Of a stretch of DNA of 64,000 bases, positions 44,426-59,609 are shown piece after piece; within the stretch, counting starts at the first letter, position 1; every line of letters begins with the position of its first letter. A program made the translations under genes and the position numbers. The DNA is from Myxococcales bacterium (GTDB lineage: Bacteria; Myxococcota_A; Polyangia; Polyangiales; Houyiibacteriaceae), in contig JAOTVB010000001.1 in the NCBI GenBank assembly GCA_029863605.1, positions 410,187 to 474,186 of the forward strand, given 5' to 3'. The notes under the pieces are model-generated. The model worked only from the letters and a program-made list of their open reading frames with translations. It was not told the DNA's origin and did no database searches.

Positions 44426-45052
44426 TCAACGCATTAGGAAGACCATCACCGCGACGCTTGCTGCGAGCAAGAGCCCTGCCAGCGAATAGACCACCAATTC
44501 GCTTGTCGACATGCGAGATCGCTCCTGCGTCGGTTGTGCGGGGGGCGGGGCTGACGTCCGCGGCGGCGGGTTGCTCGGCGATGTCTTCGGGATCGGCAGC
44601 AGCTGGACCGACTGATCGGCTCCGCTTTGGATCGCCTCAAGCTGGGCTTCCACGGACCTCTGCCCATCCGTGTCCTGCTCTGCCAGCATTTTGCGCGCGT
44701 ACTCGGTGGTGAGCCTGGCCGATATCGTCTGCGCCACCGGGACACCGACGTCGATCGTGAGCTGGTAGCCGCCGATGTCGATGGTGTCTTGCATTCGGAG
44801 GGGTTTGGGTCGTCCCGCGACTACGGGGGTTTCGTTCACACGCGTTCCATTCGTCGAACCTTCGTCGATGAGTATGTACCCAATATCTTCTGTGCGGATC
44901 GTCGCGTGGGTCGCGCTCACGGCCAAGTGGGGCAGCTGAACATCTGCGCTGCGCGAACGACCGATGACTATTCGAGACTGGGCGAACTCGTAGACGAAGG
45001 TAGAAGGCTCTTCCTTCGCCCAAAGCGACTGCACAGCGATACGCACGCCCAT
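44426..45052 (-). CDS. FHA-domain protein with C-terminal membrane anchor
   Basis: 208 residues. An FHA domain occupies about residues 10-110: IVIGRSRSADVQLPHLAVSATHA and DEGSTNGTRVN carry the Arg, Ser, His and Asn that bind phosphothreonine. A Pro-rich linker follows (150-180) and a single C-terminal membrane helix (LVVYSLAGLLLAASVAVMVFL) ends the protein, so it is tail-anchored with the FHA domain in the cytoplasm. The ATG at 45052 replaces an upstream TTG start at 45064. Two Ser/Thr kinases in this window could supply its phospho-ligands. It is convergent with coaX 32 bp away. Confidence 0.9.
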   Translation of the reverse strand: MGVRIAVQSLWAKEEPSTFVYEFAQSRIVIGRSRSADVQLPHLAVSATHATIRTEDIGYILIDEGSTNGTRVNETPVVAGRPKPLRMQDTIDIGGYQLTIDVGVPVAQTISARLTTEYARKMLAEQDTDGQRSVEAQLEAIQSGADQSVQLLPIPKTSPSNPPPRTSAPPPAQPTQERSRMSTSELVVYSLAGLLLAASVAVMVFLMR

Positions 45053-45183
45053 CGTGGCCGCCAAGGCTGGGGGCGGAGCGCGATGCGGTCAAGGAACCGG
45101 GTTGCAGAAAAGTGGACGGTTCGCCGGACTTTTGGGACCAGAGGAGACGGGGCGGCTTCCGTGTCGCCTCCAAGAGGCATTCG

Positions 45184-46746
45184 ATGAATACATCCGTCGG
45201 TTATTACCAAGCGCCTCGACCTCCGCGCGTGCCGCTCGACGAGGTTCTGATCAGGCTGTACCCGGAGGGTTTCCACGAGGAGGAGTTCGAAGCAGACGGC
45301 CTCAATGTAGGTCCGGGTGGGATCTCGATGCGCGCATCGGTCCTTCCGCAGGTCGGGTCGACTCTTCGGTGCCAGCTCGAGAGCCCGATCGGTGGAGCAC
45401 CGATTCAAATGGTGGGCCGGGTCGTCTGGGCGCACGATAGCGGCCCGCAGGTCGGCGAGTTCGGCATTCGCTTCACTCGACTCTCGGACGAGGACCAAAC
45501 CCGGATCGAGGCGCTCATCCAGCGTTGGGGTCGCAGCTCGGCTGAGGCGCCGTCTGTTCGACTGAGGCTCGACGGCGTTGGATCGCCGATAGTCGCAGAG
45601 CTCGCGTCTGAGACCGACACCGAGCTTGCCGTCGAGCAGAGCCTTCCGTTCCTTGCCATCGGAAGCGCGGTGGAGAACGAGACCGCCGGTCGCCGCGGAC
45701 ACCTCGAGGCGGTCGAACTGAAATTCGACGAAAGGACGCCGAAGCTCGTGCTCAACATCGGCTACGAGACCGAGGAGACGGCCGAGTCCGCGTCCGAAGA
45801 TTTGGACAGAGACACGCTTCCGGATGACGCCCCGAGGGCCTCGCGGCCGAACCGGCGCACTTCGAGCGCTCGGATCCACGATACGCCGCGCATCGTTCGC
45901 TACGACTCCACCGCCGAGGGGTCGCTTGAGAGAACCACGACGGAGCGCCTTCGCGACTATGCGCGTGCAGCATCAGACCAGCTTTCGAGCTCGCTCGCAA
46001 GCGTGGGCAAAGCCATCAAGCACGACATGATCCCGTCGATTGCGGTGACCACGCGTCGCAGCGCGACGGTGCTGGCGCGATTCGTCGAGGCGCTACGAGG
46101 CCGCCTCGATGACAAACCGCGTCGTAGGCAGGTTCCGCGTAGCCAGGCCGCTCGTGCGCATTTGAAGAATTCTCGACGCACCCGGAGGCGATATCTGATC
46201 ATCGCCGCCCTAGCTTTCGGCATCGTGATGGCGGGGTGGGGGATCTACCTTTGGGCAGCGTCTGGGACGGCGACAGCGTCTGGGTCAGAGACGGAGACGG
46301 CGTCAGCGGCAGAGACAGCGGCAGAGACGGCGTCAGCGTCAGAGGCAGCGTCGGCGTCAGAGTCAGCCGCGACGGCAGCGCCGGCGACAGCGTCCGTGAC
46401 CGAGTCAGCGTCGGCGACGGTGCCTTTGCCGCCTGAGCGGGTGCGAGGGATGGCCTTTGGCGCCGAACAAGTGCCGGGCGGCGAAAAGTACGTGCTTCGA
46501 ATGAGCAACCCAGTGACCGCCATGGACGGGCTCGTCGAGGATGACGGCTTTTCGGTGATGATCCCCGGAAGCCTTTCCCTTTCTCGGGCAGGTCCCATCG
46601 CTACTGCACACCCGGATGTGGAGCATGCCGGGATCCTCAATCGAGGGGACTTCTCCGAGCTCACGATCCGCTTCGTTGCGGGGCGCCATCCCGCCTACAG
46701 GGTGGAGGCCCGCGGACCCGCGATCGAGCTCACGATCGCCCGCTAA
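45184..46746 (+). CDS. PilZ-like membrane protein with Ala/Ser/Thr/Glu linker and AMIN-like end
   Basis: 520 residues. The N-terminal 110 residues resemble PilZ (GFHEEEFEADGLNVGPGGISMRAS, shortened, followed by GRVVWAH and GIRFTRLSDEDQ) but the RxxxR motif is missing and DxSxxG is altered to NVGPGG, so c-di-GMP binding is doubtful. A second similar half (110-210) follows. After a basic patch a membrane helix lies at about 337-357. Next is a linker (360-418) coded entirely by hexamer repeats, of Ala, Ser, Thr and Glu. The last 95 residues (VRGMAFGAEQVPGGEKYVLRM, FSELTIRFVAGRHPAYRVEARG, shortened) resemble an AMIN-like periplasmic domain. SD AAGAGG lies 6 nt before ATG 45184. Confidence 0.8.
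   Translation: MNTSVGYYQAPRPPRVPLDEVLIRLYPEGFHEEEFEADGLNVGPGGISMRASVLPQVGSTLRCQLESPIGGAPIQMVGRVVWAHDSGPQVGEFGIRFTRLSDEDQTRIEALIQRWGRSSAEAPSVRLRLDGVGSPIVAELASETDTELAVEQSLPFLAIGSAVENETAGRRGHLEAVELKFDERTPKLVLNIGYETEETAESASEDLDRDTLPDDAPRASRPNRRTSSARIHDTPRIVRYDSTAEGSLERTTTERLRDYARAASDQLSSSLASVGKAIKHDMIPSIAVTTRRSATVLARFVEALRGRLDDKPRRRQVPRSQAARAHLKNSRRTRRRYLIIAALAFGIVMAGWGIYLWAASGTATASGSETETASAAETAAETASASEAASASESAATAAPATASVTESASATVPLPPERVRGMAFGAEQVPGGEKYVLRMSNPVTAMDGLVEDDGFSVMIPGSLSLSRAGPIATAHPDVEHAGILNRGDFSELTIRFVAGRHPAYRVEARGPAIELTIAR
46256..46432 (+). repeat. hexamer repeats coding an Ala/Ser/Thr/Glu linker
   Basis: About 30 degenerate units of the form GACAGC/GTCAGC/GGCAGC/GACGGC in frame within the PilZ-like gene. 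They supply a low-complexity extracytoplasmic linker after the membrane helix. Same sequence family as the intergenic runs at 28866, 35452 and 44394. Confidence 0.85.
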
Positions 46747-46749
46747 CGC

Positions 46750-48144
46750 CTACCTCGAGCGACCGATCGACTGAAAGAAGCGTCGAGATTCGCGCTCCAC
46801 GTAGAGCAACGCCTTGCCGTCCTTCAGCGCGAGCTGTACGTCTTGCGCGGACTGCACGGGACGTTGGTCGGCCTGCAAGATGATGTCTCCAGGTTGCAGC
46901 CCCGCCCGGTCGGCATCCGAACCCGGCTGCACTCCCCTCACGAACACCCGTCCTTCCCCCTCGTATCGAAAGCGCTGTCGAAGCATCGGTGTGATCTCCT
47001 GCAAGGAGAGGCCCAAGGTGTCGCCGCTATCGGAGCCCTTCGGCTTCGCTTGCGCGTCATCTCCAGTGGGTCGCTCACCGGTGACCAGCTTCACTTTCCG
47101 GGTGTCGGCCCCACGCCAGACTTTCAGCGTGAGCCGCTCGCCCACGTCGTGACGCAACACCGTCCGGAGCAAGTCGTGGCCTTCTCGTATCTTGGTATCG
47201 CCGACAGCCACGACGACATCGCCCGCCTTCAAACCGGCTTTATCGGCAGGGCCTTCAGGAACCACCGCGTTGATCAAAGCGCCTCCATCGAAGTCACCCC
47301 CGAAATGCGAGGCGAGCTCCGGCGTGATCTCCTGGAACGAGACACCAAGCCACGCACGCTTCATCGCGCCGTGCTGAATCAACTGTTTGGCTACGCGCTG
47401 AGCGATCTCAGACGGAATCGCGAAGCCGATCCCCGAGCCGCGACCGATAATCATCGTGTTGATTCCGAGAACATCTCCGTTGAGATCGACCAGCGGGCCT
47501 CCCGAGTTGCCTGGGTTGATGCTCGCATCGGTCTGCAGATAGTCCTCGATCTCGTTGGCGCCAATGCCCCCTCGACCCTTCGCGCTCAGTACTCCGGTGG
47601 TCACCGTGTAGTCGAGCCCGAACGGCGATCCGATGGCGATCACGAACTGGCCGACCCTCGCATCCTGTGAGGAGGCAAAAGCGGCTTGTTTGAGTCCCGT
47701 GGCGTCGATCTTGAGAACGGCGAGATCGCTCGGCGGGTCGGCACCTATCAGGGTCGCAAGGTAGCTCTCGCCACTTTGGAGCCTGACGTCGATGCGCGTC
47801 GCCTCACGAACCACGTGATTGTTCGTCAGAATGTACCCGTCAGACCTCAGGATGACCCCGGAGCCACCCCCTCGAACGATGCCGCCCCGGTCGGGCATTC
47901 CGAAGAACGGAATCGGAAAGCCCATTTGCTGGGGCCGAGTCACCTCGACTTGAATGCTCACCACCGATGGCGATACCGCCTCGGCGACCCCGGTGAGCGC
48001 AGTCTCGAACGCGATCGCTCTCGACAGCGCTTCCTCGTCGACCCTGGCCTTCTTCGGGGAAGCGTACGCGGTACCCAGAACCGCGGCCATGGCGGCAGTG
48101 ACGAGCATGGCGACCCTGCGGCGCCGGACCTTGCTTTGAGTCAT
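46750..48144 (-). CDS. HtrA/DegP-type periplasmic serine protease
   Basis: 464 residues. Signal region KVRRRRVAMLVTAAMAAVLGTAYA. The trypsin-like domain has the triad His (TNNHVV), Asp (SDLAVLKID) and Ser214 (NPGNSGGPL). Two PDZ domains follow: RAWLGVSFQEITPELA... and LGLSLQEITPMLRQRF, each with a GxxxGDxI/V block. GGAGG lies 8 nt before ATG 48144 (MTQSKV), which favours this over starts at 48150 and 48171. It is a quality-control protease for the periplasm; the preceding convergent PilZ-like gene ends 3 bp away. Confidence 0.95.
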   Translation of the reverse strand: MTQSKVRRRRVAMLVTAAMAAVLGTAYASPKKARVDEEALSRAIAFETALTGVAEAVSPSVVSIQVEVTRPQQMGFPIPFFGMPDRGGIVRGGGSGVILRSDGYILTNNHVVREATRIDVRLQSGESYLATLIGADPPSDLAVLKIDATGLKQAAFASSQDARVGQFVIAIGSPFGLDYTVTTGVLSAKGRGGIGANEIEDYLQTDASINPGNSGGPLVDLNGDVLGINTMIIGRGSGIGFAIPSEIAQRVAKQLIQHGAMKRAWLGVSFQEITPELASHFGGDFDGGALINAVVPEGPADKAGLKAGDVVVAVGDTKIREGHDLLRTVLRHDVGERLTLKVWRGADTRKVKLVTGERPTGDDAQAKPKGSDSGDTLGLSLQEITPMLRQRFRYEGEGRVFVRGVQPGSDADRAGLQPGDIILQADQRPVQSAQDVQLALKDGKALLYVERESRRFFQSIGRSR

Positions 48145-48251
48145 GAGCATGACCTCCATATGGGGCCTCAACGGGCAAGCGGTACGGTTGATTCCGGCCC
48201 CCGTCGCTCAACCCGCGAGTGCTTCGACAAAAGAGCAATAATCACTGAGTG

Positions 48252-49943
48252 TTAGCCTTCTGCTGGGCAAGGCAGGACGATCGAGACGGTCGTGCGCTCG
48301 CCCGGCTTACTGTCGATCTGGATTCGCCCTTTGTGTTGTTCGACGATGTTCCTGACGATCGACAACCCGAGCCCCGTCCCCTTGCCCTTTCGGCGAGTCG
48401 AAAAGAACGGCTCGAAGACCTGCTCGAGGTGGCCCTCGGGGATGCCGATGCCGTTGTCTTCGACCACGATCTCAATCTGATCGTTGCCGTGGCGGCGGGT
48501 CCGGATCAACACGACTCCGCCGTCTTCGCCAGCCGCGTTGCAAGCATTGGTGATGACATTGACGAACACCTGATGAAGTTGCCCGGGGACCGCTTGGATT
48601 CGGGGGAGGCCCTCCGCATAGTCAGGGATGACGGTGATGTTCGACTCTCGTATCAGGTGGTCACAGAAGTCGACCGCCTCGCCGATAATCTCGTTGACTG
48701 CGACTTCGCGCGCCTCCTCCTTGGAGGGTCGAGCGTAGGTCAGCAAGTTGCGGGTAAATGACATGATGCGGTCCGAGCTTCGCAAGATCCGCTCGATTCG
48801 CTTGAGGTCGGACGACTCGGCGCCACTTCGGGTGAGCTTGCCGAGCAAGTACTCGCCATACACCGATATACTTGTGAGCGGGTTGTTGATCTCATGCACG
48901 ATGCCCGCTGCAAGTTGGCCGAGGGTCGCAAGCCTTTCTGCATGAATGACTTGCCCCTCGAGCTCTCGAACCTCGGTGCGATCCTGGCCGATCGCGATCA
49001 CTCCTGCGACGCGCCCCTCAGAATCCAAGATCGGTGCGAGCTTGAACGAAAGACGTGCTGACCCTCCTTTCGCTCTGGGGAGCTGAAGCTCGAATGGGGC
49101 GACGTTGCGCCCGCGCAACGCACCAACGAAGGCCGAGAGCAGGTGCACACGCTCGCTTTGTGGGGCGAGTTGCAAGAGGTCTTTCGCTATCAGCCGGTCA
49201 GGCGCGATGCCGGTGATTCGGGCAAACGCGCTACTGACGACACGGACACCTCGATCGCGCCCGACGACGAGCACCGGGATGTTGGCGTGCTCGAGAAGCT
49301 TGCCGACATAGTCGCGGAGATGGCTCGCTTCACGACGACGGCTCGCGATCTCGAGAGTGGCACTCGCCTGGCTGGCTGCGATGACGGCTGCGGTTTCGAG
49401 GTTCGCAGGGAGGGGTTCGCGACGGTCGAACTCTGCAAGCAGGACCCCGATTACCTCCCCCCCCCGAGTGAGGGGGGCGTCGAACCCGTCCGAGAAGGGC
49501 GCGTCGTCAGGCGGCGCTTCCAGGATCGGCTGGTACGTCCGTTGAAGGGTGATCTCCCCTAGTGCCGGGGCCGCCTCCCAAAGACCGCTTCGGACGAGCC
49601 CTGCTTCGGTGATCGTGACGGCATGGAGCGCCTCGGTCGCGATGTGATGGGTGGCGGTCTGTACCACTGCGGTAGGCTCGGCCGCCCCCTGTCGTGCGAG
49701 GCGCATGGCGAACCGGATTTTCGGATAGAGGTTTTCGAGTGCATGTACATAGGCGCGCAATATGTTTTCGTCTGTGGCAACCCCCCCGGCTTCGTCCTGC
49801 GCCTGGTTCAACGCCCCGAGGATTGCGGGTATCGTGGGCTCTTCGGTCCGTCGACGCGGGTTGACGATCGACTTCACAGCCGAGATCCTGGGTTGCAAAC
49901 TCTGTTGGCGACGCGGTTTCTTTGGAGCCGGATCGTCCATCAC
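48252..49943 (-). CDS. cytoplasmic GAF-PAS histidine kinase
   Basis: 563 residues. No membrane helix. A GAF-like region (about 60-205) is followed by a PAS domain (205-330: LLEHANIPVLVVGRDRGVR... and GVIAIGQDRTEVRELE), the H-box with phosphoacceptor H350 in AGIVHEINNPLTSIS, and a complete HATPase domain: NVITNACNAAG, EDNGIGIP, GTGLGLSIV. Its ATG overlaps the stop of the HisKA-only protein by 4 bp. No response regulator is next to it. The pair probably work together, this gene supplying the ATP-binding domain. Confidence 0.92.
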   Translation of the reverse strand: MMDDPAPKKPRRQQSLQPRISAVKSIVNPRRRTEEPTIPAILGALNQAQDEAGGVATDENILRAYVHALENLYPKIRFAMRLARQGAAEPTAVVQTATHHIATEALHAVTITEAGLVRSGLWEAAPALGEITLQRTYQPILEAPPDDAPFSDGFDAPLTRGGEVIGVLLAEFDRREPLPANLETAAVIAASQASATLEIASRRREASHLRDYVGKLLEHANIPVLVVGRDRGVRVVSSAFARITGIAPDRLIAKDLLQLAPQSERVHLLSAFVGALRGRNVAPFELQLPRAKGGSARLSFKLAPILDSEGRVAGVIAIGQDRTEVRELEGQVIHAERLATLGQLAAGIVHEINNPLTSISVYGEYLLGKLTRSGAESSDLKRIERILRSSDRIMSFTRNLLTYARPSKEEAREVAVNEIIGEAVDFCDHLIRESNITVIPDYAEGLPRIQAVPGQLHQVFVNVITNACNAAGEDGGVVLIRTRRHGNDQIEIVVEDNGIGIPEGHLEQVFEPFFSTRRKGKGTGLGLSIVRNIVEQHKGRIQIDSKPGERTTVSIVLPCPAEG

Positions 49944-51334
49944 CCCTCCGGTCCCCGGTCCGAGCTCGGCGCGTCTGCGGCGCGATCGAGATCGAAGATC
50001 TTCTGCTGACCCACGTACGAAGTCGTCTCGTACCGCGTGATCTTTCCGATTTTGCGAACGATCTCTGCCATGCGCTCGGCCTCACGGATCAGCACCTCTG
50101 CTGCCTTTGCGCCTGTAGAGCCTGCCTCGGACTGACGCAACAGAAGCTCGGCATAAGCCATCATGCTCGTGAGAGGTTGGTTGAGCTCGTGAGCTGCTGT
50201 CCCTGCCAGTTCGGCGAGCACGCCCTGCTTTTCGGTGAAAGCAAGCTTCTTCTGCGCTTCCGCGAGTCGCTCTTCGACGCGAATTCGGTCGCGGAGGTCT
50301 GCGAAGATCAGCACGATGGCCGACGGCTGACCGTGCTCGTAGATCAGTGAAGCCGATAGCTGCACCGGAATGTGCGCTCCGTGGACGTCGACGAGCTCGA
50401 GCATCGTAGGCTCGAGCCGCCCATCACCTCCGTGACCCTCCGTCAACAGTCTTCGCGTCACTAACTCGGAGGCTCCTCGCCCGAGGAGGTGCTCGAGCGT
50501 CAATACGCCAACGGCATCCGAGACATGGTGGCCAGTGATCCTCTCGGCACTCGGGTTGAACAGGACCACGCGTTGCTCCATGTCGGTCGCGATGATCGCG
50601 TCGACGCTCGCGTCGATCAGGGAGCCAAGGAACTCCATCGTCTTGAGTAACTCGCGTTCGGTCTTGCGCTCCTCACTCACGTCCTCGAAGGAGATCACCG
50701 TGTGATCGTCATCGTCGAGCAACGGTGCGAACGAAGAGCTGCAAAGGATCTTGGCGCCTTCGCGACGAATCAGATGAATGTCCATCCCCTGTGCCAACTC
50801 TCGACGCTCAAGCGCCTCGAGGATGCGCGGCCAATCCTCGCTGGCTACCAGCCGCGCCAGCTCCTCCCCACCGATCGTTTCTTCGCGGTATCCTACGATC
50901 TCGGAGGCTCGAGGGTTGGCGAAAACGATCCGCCGGTCAGGTCCCACGACGAGCACGCCTCGCGCGACCGAGGCCAAGGCATCGAGATGACGCCGTCGGA
51001 GATTCTCGAGGGGTGTCCTGGTGCGGAGTCTTTCGAGCCGCACGAGCAATTCTGCGGCTGGCGCACCTCGAAAGACGAGGTCGTCGACGAGCTCATCGAA
51101 CCTCTCAGTGCTTCCCTCTGTACCAAGAACCAAGAGGACAGACTTTCCGCGTGGCGCGTGCCAGCGACCGGCCAACGGATGCCCCGCATCCAAGACTACG
51201 ACGTCGTGTTCGATTGCGGCATCGTCGATAGCGCTCGACTCGAGCCATTCGACTGACCACTCGCTTCCCTCGAGAGCCTTTTTGACCTCGTCATACAGAC
51301 TCGAATCTGTCGAAATCAGTGCCAGCGTGGCCAT
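49940..51334 (-). CDS. pseudo-receiver / PAS-PAS / HisKA protein lacking the ATPase domain
   Basis: 464 residues. Residues 1-110 resemble a receiver that has lost its acidic pocket (TLALISTDSSLYD and HDVVVLDAG), so it is probably not phosphorylated. Two PAS domains follow (about 130-240 and 250-360). The dimerisation/phosphoacceptor helix has H382 in GTAAHELNQPLTSMM and runs to about 420. The protein then stops 40 residues later: there is no N, G1 or G2 box, so it cannot bind ATP by itself. ATG 51334 (MATLALIS). It overlaps the complete kinase gene at its 3' end by 4 bp. This is not a frameshift, because that next gene carries its own PAS and HisKA. Confidence 0.9.
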   Translation of the reverse strand: MATLALISTDSSLYDEVKKALEGSEWSVEWLESSAIDDAAIEHDVVVLDAGHPLAGRWHAPRGKSVLLVLGTEGSTERFDELVDDLVFRGAPAAELLVRLERLRTRTPLENLRRRHLDALASVARGVLVVGPDRRIVFANPRASEIVGYREETIGGEELARLVASEDWPRILEALERRELAQGMDIHLIRREGAKILCSSSFAPLLDDDDHTVISFEDVSEERKTERELLKTMEFLGSLIDASVDAIIATDMEQRVVLFNPSAERITGHHVSDAVGVLTLEHLLGRGASELVTRRLLTEGHGGDGRLEPTMLELVDVHGAHIPVQLSASLIYEHGQPSAIVLIFADLRDRIRVEERLAEAQKKLAFTEKQGVLAELAGTAAHELNQPLTSMMAYAELLLRQSEAGSTGAKAAEVLIREAERMAEIVRKIGKITRYETTSYVGQQKIFDLDRAADAPSSDRGPEG

Positions 51335-51413: not shown

Positions 51414-52220
51414 GTGGCAAAGCCGATTGGAATCTTTGATTCGGGCCTAGGCGGGCTCACGGTGGCTCGTGCTGTCCGCGAGGCGCTTCCCGACGAAAAC
51501 CTCGTGTACCTAGGGGACACCGCGCGCGTCCCTTACGGAACCAGAAGTGCACGTACAGTGGTTCGCTATGCGCTGGCGTGCGCCGACCGCTTGATGAGCT
51601 TCGACATCAAGCTTCTCGTCGTCGCCTGCAACACAGCGAGCGGGTTCGCCCTCGAGACGCTCGAACAGCAACTGTCGATCCCCGTCATCGGCGTTATCGC
51701 GCCGGGTGCATGCGCCGGAGTCCGAGCGACTCGCAGCGGTCGTATCGGAGTCCTCGCCACCGCTGGCACGGTTGCCTCGGGCGCCTACGAGCGTGCGATT
51801 CACCGGGAAAACGAGGCGATTCGTGTGTTTGCGCAGCCGGCACCGCTCCTCGTTCCACTGGCCGAAGAAGGCTGGGTCACCGGGGAGGTGCCGACGTTGG
51901 CTGCCAAGCGCTATCTTCAACCCTTGGTAAAAGCCGATGTCGACACCATCGTTCTCGGCTGCACGCACTACCCACTCCTGTCGGAGACCATCCACGAGGT
52001 AGCTCGCGAGCTTCTTGGGCACGAGGTGGCGATCGTCGACAGCGCGCAGGCGACAGCGTCCGCGCTTCGCTCCCTGCTCGAGGTTCGGCCCAACGAGCCT
52101 GCCGGGGTCGGTTCGCTGCGGGTCCTCGTGACCGATCTACCTGGGCAATTTGCGACCGCGGCATCGAGGTTCCTCGGGGCTCCCCTCGAGGGCTTTGAGA
52201 CCCAGGCTATCGACCTATGA
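51414..52220 (+). CDS. murI: glutamate racemase
   Basis: 268 residues, GTG start. The two catalytic cysteines are C72 (CNTASG) and C183 (GCTHYP), with IGIFDSGLGGLTVA, GDTARVPYG and the RATRSGRIGVLATAGT segment. It makes D-glutamate for peptidoglycan. It is divergent from the PAS kinase operon with 79 bp between starts, and the AT-rich promoter of the kinase-receiver gene follows its stop. Confidence 0.95.
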   Translation: MAKPIGIFDSGLGGLTVARAVREALPDENLVYLGDTARVPYGTRSARTVVRYALACADRLMSFDIKLLVVACNTASGFALETLEQQLSIPVIGVIAPGACAGVRATRSGRIGVLATAGTVASGAYERAIHRENEAIRVFAQPAPLLVPLAEEGWVTGEVPTLAAKRYLQPLVKADVDTIVLGCTHYPLLSETIHEVARELLGHEVAIVDSAQATASALRSLLEVRPNEPAGVGSLRVLVTDLPGQFATAASRFLGAPLEGFETQAIDL

Positions 52221-56074: not shown

Positions 56075-56501
56075 TGCAACCCGCTCCCCCTCGGTTGCAG
56101 AGCGCCTCCTGTGGGCGAGCTTGGCAGCCGGTGGGTTTGCCGTCCTCGTCACGGCCGCGTGGATCGAGCCCGACCCGAGGGGCTACGGCACCCACACGCA
56201 GTTGGGTCTTCCTCCATGTGGGTTTCTCGCGCTCACGGGCTCCCCGTGCCCAGGTTGCGGGCTCACCACGGCGTTCGCCTACGCGGCTCGTGGACAATGG
56301 TGGCTGGCAGGGACGTCCAATCCGCTTGGTTTGGTCTTGTTTCTGATCGTGTGTGCGACCGTTCCGATGAGCGTCTTGGCCATCGTGCGCGGCTGGTCCT
56401 TCGCGGCGACGGTCGACCGCCTCTCATTGGATCGATGGGCGTTGGCCGTGGCGGGCTGCGGTGTCGTCCTTTGGGTCGTCCGGTTTGCCTCGGCGCTCTA
56501 G
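56064..56501 (+). CDS. DUF2752 membrane protein
   Basis: 145 residues. Three to four membrane helices (about 17-35, 50-65, 85-105, 120-140). The motif CGFLALTGSPCPGCGLTTAF with SNPLGLVLF is the DUF2752 signature. ATG 56064 (MPSDATRS). It is the last gene of the YkgJ-DUF501-DUF2752 set. Its TAG shares the palindrome CTAG with the convergent receiver gene at 56498. Confidence 0.88.
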   Translation: MPSDATRSPSVAERLLWASLAAGGFAVLVTAAWIEPDPRGYGTHTQLGLPPCGFLALTGSPCPGCGLTTAFAYAARGQWWLAGTSNPLGLVLFLIVCATVPMSVLAIVRGWSFAATVDRLSLDRWALAVAGCGVVLWVVRFASAL

Positions 56502-57388
56502 GCAGAGCCTTGAGTCGGCCTGCGGGCTTCGAGCTGGTGACGCGTTTGCTTGAGAAGATCGTCGCCGCTTTTCACCGTAGTCGCAGGTGTGCTGGTCACC
56601 GCAATCTCCATAGCGGGGCGGGGTGTGACCGCTTGTCCCCACAGCTCGCCGTTTTCGATCTGCCCTTCCAATCTGCGAAGCACGTATATCGCGCCGTCGC
56701 CGTCGGTCTCGGGGAGCAAGATGCAGAACTCGTCGCGCCGGATCCGAAAGAGATGGTCGACAGCACGAATGCATCCCCGCAACCCAGCGCCGATCAGGGC
56801 CATGACTTTATCCGTCGTGCCGTCCTCGCTTGCTTCGGCGATCGCGTTCGCGTTCCCGAGACGCACCACCATGCACGTGAGCGGATGTCCATACCGCTCC
56901 GCACGGGTGTGCTCGTAGTCCAAACTGATCAAGAGCTGCGAGGGTGTACCGGCCCCGGTGACTGGGTCGCGCTGGTCGGCAGGCGGCGTGCTTTCCGGAA
57001 TCCCAAGTCGATCCCGCCGCGTAGCGCGCAACACGTTGCGCACGCGCTGTTGGATCTCGAACACACGGTAGGGTCGCGTCAGGTAGTCTTCGGCCCCTAG
57101 CTCGATCCCTCGGCGACGCGAATCCAAATCACCCTCGTCGGTCACGAGCAGTACGGGGATGTTCTGCAGGCTGGCGTCGGCCTTCAGGATGCGCAAGATC
57201 TCGAACGCGTTCACCTGCGACATGTTGGCATCGAGCATCACCAAATCGGGTTGTCGCCGAGCCACCATGGCGAGTACCTCGGGCCCATCGGCCGCAGTCA
57301 CGACGTCATACCCTGCCGCCTCGCACGCTTCGTGTAGCAGGCGCAGATCGAATGGATCCGGATCAGCGACCAGCACCAAGGCACTCAT
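56498..57388 (-). CDS. receiver with degenerate GGDEF domain
   Basis: 296 residues. Receiver domain: VLVADPDPFDLRLL, phosphoacceptor region VMLDANMS, VLLVTDEGD and DYLTRPYRVFEI (Arg replaces the usual Lys). A GGDEF-type domain follows (about 140-270) with the family lead (DPVTGAGTPSQLL) and the active-site loop RRDEF in place of GGDEF. Loss of the two Gly residues normally abolishes cyclic-di-GMP synthesis, so it is probably a regulatory or protein-binding remnant. Ends convergently with the DUF2752 gene (shared CTAG). Confidence 0.88.
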   Translation of the reverse strand: MSALVLVADPDPFDLRLLHEACEAAGYDVVTAADGPEVLAMVARRQPDLVMLDANMSQVNAFEILRILKADASLQNIPVLLVTDEGDLDSRRRGIELGAEDYLTRPYRVFEIQQRVRNVLRATRRDRLGIPESTPPADQRDPVTGAGTPSQLLISLDYEHTRAERYGHPLTCMVVRLGNANAIAEASEDGTTDKVMALIGAGLRGCIRAVDHLFRIRRDEFCILLPETDGDGAIYVLRRLEGQIENGELWGQAVTPRPAMEIAVTSTPATTVKSGDDLLKQTRHQLEARRPTQGSA

Positions 57389-58884: not shown

Positions 58885-58960
<76 letters not shown>

Positions 58961-59000
58961 AGAATCGAACACTAAAGATAAAATTCTTGGCGGAGGCACA

Positions 59001-59609
59001 ATGGCAAAGGCGCTACCACCGGTAAAAGTTCTCGTCGTCGATGACGATCCCGCGATCTTGGAGTTCATGGAGACCTTCCTCACGAAGGATGGCTTCGAGG
59101 TCACCACGATTGCCGAGCCCAGGGACGCGCCCGATGAAGTCAAAGACGGCGGCTATCATCTCGTGGTGCTCGATCTCATGATGCCCGGTCTTGGTGGCGT
59201 CGAGGTACTAGAGCAGATCCGCAAGGTCGACAGCGATGTCGCGGTGGTGATCTTTACCGGCTATCCCTCCCTCGACACGGCCGTTCAGTCGATGAAGCTC
59301 GATGCCGTCGACTACCTCAAAAAGCCGTTCAACCCAGACGAGTTTCGCGAGGTCCTCGACCGGGTCATGCGCAAGAAGGGTCTTCTTCGAACGCCCGAAG
59401 AGAATCTTCACCGTGTCATCGGCGAAACCATCCGAGGGCTTCGGAAGGACCGGAGCCTCACGCTCAAACAGATGGCGCGCCGCACCGGGTTGAGTGTTTC
59501 ATTGCTGTCGCAAATCGAACGCGCGGAATCGAGTGCTTCGATCAGCTCGTTGTACAAGATCGCAACCGCGCTCGACGTCCGCATTCAGGACCTATTCGGC
59601 GAGTATTGA
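59001..59609 (+). CDS. receiver-XRE response regulator
   Basis: 202 residues. Receiver: VLVVDDDPAI, phosphoacceptor D58 in VVLDLMMPG, switch Thr in IFTGYP and Lys in YLKKPF, all intact. A short linker, then a HTH_3/XRE DNA-binding domain (about 140-195: LTLKQMARRTGLSVSLLSQIE and IATALDVRIQDLF). ATG 59001 has GGAGG 4 nt before it. Located 42 bp behind the tRNA-Pro gene with no terminator, so it may be processed from the same transcript. Its last 18 bp overlap the convergent TPR lipoprotein gene. Confidence 0.92.
   Translation: MAKALPPVKVLVVDDDPAILEFMETFLTKDGFEVTTIAEPRDAPDEVKDGGYHLVVLDLMMPGLGGVEVLEQIRKVDSDVAVVIFTGYPSLDTAVQSMKLDAVDYLKKPFNPDEFREVLDRVMRKKGLLRTPEENLHRVIGETIRGLRKDRSLTLKQMARRTGLSVSLLSQIERAESSASISSLYKIATALDVRIQDLFGEY

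Follow-up and report, generated by a model that had tools for sequence, protein, structure and literature searches.

A conserved histidine kinase without an ATPase domain and its complete operon neighbour in Myxococcota: two proteins that may share one ATPase domain

In the stretch of Myxococcales DNA analysed here (64,000 nucleotides, hereafter the window), two histidine-kinase genes lie in one operon, and the first of them, gene A, encodes a HisKA domain without the ATPase domain that would ordinarily phosphorylate it. The locus thus raises the question of whether A is a broken gene and, if it is a working one, from where its phosphoacceptor histidine would receive phosphate. The original prediction held that A lacks the ATPase domain but keeps intact PAS and HisKA parts behind a degenerate N-terminal receiver, and that it may be phosphorylated in a mixed dimer by the product of the second gene, B. 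All three anatomical claims stood. No HATPase match was found in A by Pfam, even at E≤1, and the protein ends 82 residues after its phosphoacceptor, H382 (codon 50189-50191). Two PAS domains and one HisKA were identified by Pfam, the latter at 47 bits against a PF00512 cut-off of 26.9 and with both the phosphoacceptor His and the adjacent acid present, and AlphaFold predicted both PAS domains and the HisKA hairpin with high confidence (Table 1). The receiver of the window's A gave no Pfam match to Response_reg, and alignment with orthologue receivers showed the Mg-site acids replaced by Ser or Thr and the Lys by Arg, with the central Asp alone retained; several A orthologues from other families do have Response_reg matches. 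In the window's genus, A has no GAF domain and its receiver is degraded; in other families of relatives, the arrangement is receiver-GAF-PAS-PAS-HisKA, also without HATPase.

Table 1. Features of the A-B locus (coordinates within the window).
Feature	Coordinates	Strand	Basis
Gene A, pseudo-receiver-PAS-PAS-HisKA-tail protein, 464 aa, without HATPase	49940..51334	-	ATG at 51334; Pfam, comparison with orthologues
Degenerate receiver of A (about residues 1-105)	51020..51334	-	Alignment with canonical receivers of orthologues; low pLDDT
PAS 1 of A (residues 122-223)	50666..50971	-	Pfam; AlphaFold
PAS 2 of A (residues 238-346)	50297..50623	-	Pfam; AlphaFold
HisKA (DHp) of A (residues 374-429), motif HELNQPLT	50048..50215	-	Pfam; motif alignment
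Conserved tail peptide of A (residues 433-449), TRYETTSYVGQQKIFDL, which takes the place of an ATPase domain	49988..50038	-	Near-invariant in homologues; pLDDT <50 over 441-458
Gene B, complete PAS-HisKA-HATPase histidine kinase, 563 aa, weak GAF	48252..49943	-	Pfam; DNA
HisKA of B, motif HEINNPLT, H350 at 48894-48896	48726..48923	-	Pfam; DNA
HATPase_c of B (E 9e-30)	48267..48587	-	Pfam; N, G1 and G2 boxes kept in B orthologues
murI (glutamate racemase, named from sequence), divergent from A	51414..52220	+	Frequent neighbour in relatives

Gene B starts either at GTG 49943, which gives the 4-bp overlap with the A stop described originally, or at ATG 49940, which reduces the overlap to 1 bp. The description of B as a complete GAF-PAS-HisKA-HATPase kinase was borne out for PAS, HisKA, and HATPase_c, but its GAF domain falls below the Pfam cut-off (19.2 vs 22.4 bits). 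No response regulator gene is present in the A-B operon; two genes for receiver-domain-like proteins, at 56498-57388 (-) and 58926-59609 (+), lie 5-8 kb from A and are candidate output regulators. The divergent murI gene occupies the same position in many relatives and marks the locus as orthologous. On the 3' side of the pair are genes for an HtrA-like protease (46750-48171, -), a PilZ-domain protein (45112-46746, +), and an FHA protein (44426-45064, -), the last two of which are neighbours in several further families of the order too.

Each of the 58 relatives searched had a match to A; identity was 65-90% across most of the genus, with orthologues sharing the end point. Because the same C-terminal end is retained at these identities, the missing ATPase domain is not a sequencing error or chance. 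As had been argued, the pair is not one gene split by a frameshift. With a profile of A, 154 of the 174 order genomes gave a single match, and a profile of HisKA plus tail found A in 190 of 373 genomes of the phylum (single copy in all but one among the matches listed). A HATPase domain continuing in frame downstream of A would have altered this picture; HATPase/CA profiles matched no A frame in the order and phylum locus surveys except that of an A-B fusion, considered below. On the evidence of sequence conservation, A is a real working part and not a broken gene.

The pairing with B is similarly widespread. The order survey comprised 121 loci. Setting aside L221, which stops at A, a CA-bearing frame lies directly 3' of A on the same strand in 102 of the 120 assessable loci, with a 4-bp overlap in 57, so the pair is far from absent in relatives. 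The remaining loci comprise the one fusion (L222) and about 17 with A, its motif intact, and no adjacent B; those of the B-less genomes that were searched for B elsewhere gave generic kinases only, or no match. Outside the order, the B gene was present in 15 of 28 sampled loci. Named records of the pair include Myxococcus vastator (L057), Labilithrix (L052), and two Deltaproteobacteria MAGs (L069, L070). The A-B pair is old and conserved. Mean-field DCA over 111 pairs (77 effective) gave A-B coupling above that of shuffled pairings, but this null takes no account of phylogeny, the method did poorly on contacts within each protein, and the strongest pairs did not fall on a HisKA-HisKA interface.

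A record labelled Comamonas sp. (L056, BNCN01000005.1) carries an A-B pair closely resembling that of Myxococcus vastator, and the organism is probably mislabelled. One genome (G014; L232 and L233) with A and B 0.8 Mb apart on a single contig was set aside, as both frames run into N gaps and the contig is probably mis-scaffolded. In four B-less loci of one family (L200, L203, L216, and L225, family f5), a groEL-like gene lies 3' of A in the place of B. Three A-type genes without B directly follow cheA (L059:2008-6077, L058:690-6017, and L067:148-5804), and CheA may be the kinase there. Finally, a frame at L102:4524-6248 encodes a receiver-HisKA-tail-receiver-GGDEF protein without an ATPase domain, its HisKA matched by A through the tail; this has the look of a phosphorelay contained in one chain and ending in a diguanylate cyclase.

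The fusion (L222, genome G158) is a single open frame encoding PAS-PAS-HisKA(HELNQPLT)-tail-HisKA(HEISNPLT)-HATPase, that is, two HisKA domains and one ATPase domain, with no receiver between the two HisKA domains. In a search of 379 phylum genomes, the best matches of its C-terminal half were B genes adjacent to A, from which we take the protein to be an A-B fusion that has lost the sensor part of B. No fusion was found in other genomes, and it is absent from the four congeners of G158.

The peptide that follows the HisKA of A (residues 433-449, T-x-Y-E-T-x-x-Y-V-G-x-x-x-I-x-D-L) is near-invariant across the order and further, while AlphaFold assigns a pLDDT below 50 to residues 441-458. Apart from the fusion, the tail was not found in any ATPase-bearing protein among the order and phylum survey loci. 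Its conserved sequence and lack of predicted structure are those of a predicted binding peptide, which suggests that the tail is a putative docking element.

The residues around the phosphoacceptor bear on what A could do in a complex. The motif HE(L/I)NQPL is present in 137 of 137 A homologues and HELNQP in 28 of 28 further loci outside the order; the His-Glu pair did not vary among the 165 A-type homologues with a checked motif, and the residue at +4 from His is Gln in every one. In B, the corresponding residue is Asn in 96 of 101, and the N, G1, and G2 boxes are retained in B orthologues. In CrdS of Myxococcus xanthus, loss of the acid adjoining the His affects the kinase reaction alone, the Asn/Thr is needed by the phosphatase reaction alone, and an N-to-Q change left ∼60% of kinase activity while phosphatase activity was not measurable (PMC3510030). 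Read against these mutants, the retained His-Glu pair and the Gln at +4 make A look phosphorylatable by an ATPase domain and, tentatively and by analogy, a poor phosphatase. Some HELNQPL kinases, FixL among them, may retain phosphatase activity, and Gln at +4 is thus no proof of its loss.

We favour the reading that the ATPase domain of B phosphorylates H382 of A within an A:B complex and that the PAS domains of A feed the same output, and we place its probability at roughly one half. A and B would form a single signalling unit in which only the B subunit carries an ATPase domain, and within a complex that may be a mixed dimer or two homodimers in contact, B would phosphorylate both its own H350 and the H382 of its partner. 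A would supply two PAS inputs and a phosphorylatable HisKA, probably without phosphatase function; B would be both kinase and phosphatase; and A~P would hand its phosphate to a distant response regulator. Phosphorylation by the neighbour, as originally proposed, fits what is seen: the operon is conserved, one genome has the two proteins fused, the His-Glu pair never varies, and the phosphatase residue of A is missing. An exclusive mixed dimer, however, does not sit well with the ∼17 order loci that have A, with the same motif, and no adjacent B. These loci count against the A:B model as well, as does the fact that B, with its own intact HisKA, has no obvious need of A. Given A without adjacent B, the A-type genes by CheA, and the L102 protein, members of the A family probably also make use of a relay fed by a receiver, or of a different kinase partner.

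Such a relay is the main rival to phosphorylation of A by B, and we consider it possible, if rather unlikely, for the A-B pair. A would be a sensory phosphorelay intermediate, its HisKA acting in the manner of an HPt domain, with phosphate passing from a phosphorylated receiver to H382 and on to a second regulator; the donor receiver would be A's own in other lineages, while here it would belong to a separate response regulator, and B, CheA, or another kinase would charge it. The ancestral form of A (receiver-GAF-PAS-PAS-HisKA) is in keeping with this, and about half of A orthologues, which counts against the A:B model, have a canonical receiver (54 of 100 B-paired and 7 of 17 B-less loci). 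CheA is encoded just 5' of A in L058, L059, and L067, the receiver being canonical in L059, and these genes, like the receiver-HisKA-receiver-GGDEF arrangement of L102 and the occurrence of A without B, speak for a relay and against the A:B model. There is also precedent: P2CS places HisKA-only proteins under phosphotransfer proteins (PMC2716373), and in the Red pathway of Myxococcus xanthus, a second transmitter obtains phosphate from a receiver domain (PMC3018481). However, the invariant Glu beside the His is a requirement of the kinase reaction with no known need in phosphotransfer (PMC3510030), the A-B operon contains no response regulator, and the fusion joins its two HisKA domains with no receiver between them. 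In the window's genus, moreover, the receiver of A is degenerate, so phosphate probably does not enter A by that route, and the relay is weakened there.

A second alternative is that A is never phosphorylated and serves as a regulatory partner, binding B much as RetS binds GacS, relaying its PAS signals, and raising or lowering B activity. The RetS precedent (PMC5992135), the lack of an ATPase domain in A, its operon and fusion with B, and a conserved tail that resembles a binding peptide would all accommodate this. Nevertheless, we judge it improbable: H382 and E383 never vary, even in B-less loci, and A does not have the Thr/Asn used in the RetS phosphatase mechanism (T428 in RetS). The view of A as a kinase gene in decay or cut short (a pseudogene, frameshift, or assembly artefact), which its missing HATPase and the degenerate receiver of the window's genus might suggest, is hardly credible and was rejected on its single-copy, order-wide retention with a constant C-terminal end and the restriction of HATPase to the fusion.

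Arrangements related to the one favoured here, in which B phosphorylates A, have been described. Split histidine kinases are known from Rhodobacter sphaeroides (CheA3/CheA4) and Synechocystis (Hik36/Hik43) (PMC3591291, PMC7656254); there, as in the A-B pair, the phosphoacceptor protein has no ATPase domain and a separately encoded partner carries one (in B, HATPase_c at E 9e-30). In the CheA-type split kinases, however, CheA4 has no phosphoacceptor and both halves are incomplete, whereas A and B each have a HisKA, that of B (HEINNPLT) being intact and its kinase complete; the PAS domains of A also make it a second sensor. RetS-GacS of Pseudomonas aeruginosa similarly joins a kinase-like sensor unable to autophosphorylate to a complete kinase (PMC5992135), but RetS keeps a degenerate HATPase and the phosphatase Thr, whereas A has no HATPase, has Gln at +4 in all homologues, and is encoded in the same operon as the kinase presumed to be its partner. 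RedCDEF of Myxococcus xanthus, also myxobacterial, resembles A in having a transmitter that apparently cannot autophosphorylate and draws phosphate from another protein, but there the source is a receiver protein of the same locus (PMC3018481), and no receiver gene is present in the A-B operon. The window's A, with a HisKA and neither HATPase nor receiver domain, belongs among the "phosphotransfer proteins" or "incomplete HKs" of P2CS, a bookkeeping class rather than a described family, and we found no mention of a conserved tail, synteny, or fusion in the P2CS description (PMC2716373). The 2013 survey by Amin et al. reported that 3.66% of HisKA proteins are without HATPase, 1.7% with HE/DxxN/T (PMC3591291); A, with its Gln, lies outside the HE/DxxN/T set. 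In the open-licence literature, we found no description of the A-B pair. The idea of a split or hetero histidine kinase is known; the A-B pair, in which the partner is itself complete, seems to be a variant of it that this literature does not describe.

Beyond the window, A may typify a family of ATPase-less histidine kinases (receiver-GAF-PAS-PAS-HisKA plus a docking peptide) that is ancient, single-copy, and spread throughout Myxococcota. Its members would be kinase-competent, phosphatase-dead acceptors that rely in trans on a complete partner kinase, a generalization that we offer tentatively. Split kinases have been predicted to yield ultrasensitive or bistable responses, with the CheA type as the worked example. 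In Myxococcota, the conserved tandem of two HisKA proteins, fused in one genome and cleanly divided as to kinase and phosphatase residues, makes this idea testable in ordinary sensor kinases and offers a role for HisKA-only genes that annotation calls incomplete. If the family-wide generalization is true, phosphodonor and phosphatase functions would be divided between two HisKA proteins, which could give a switch-like output.
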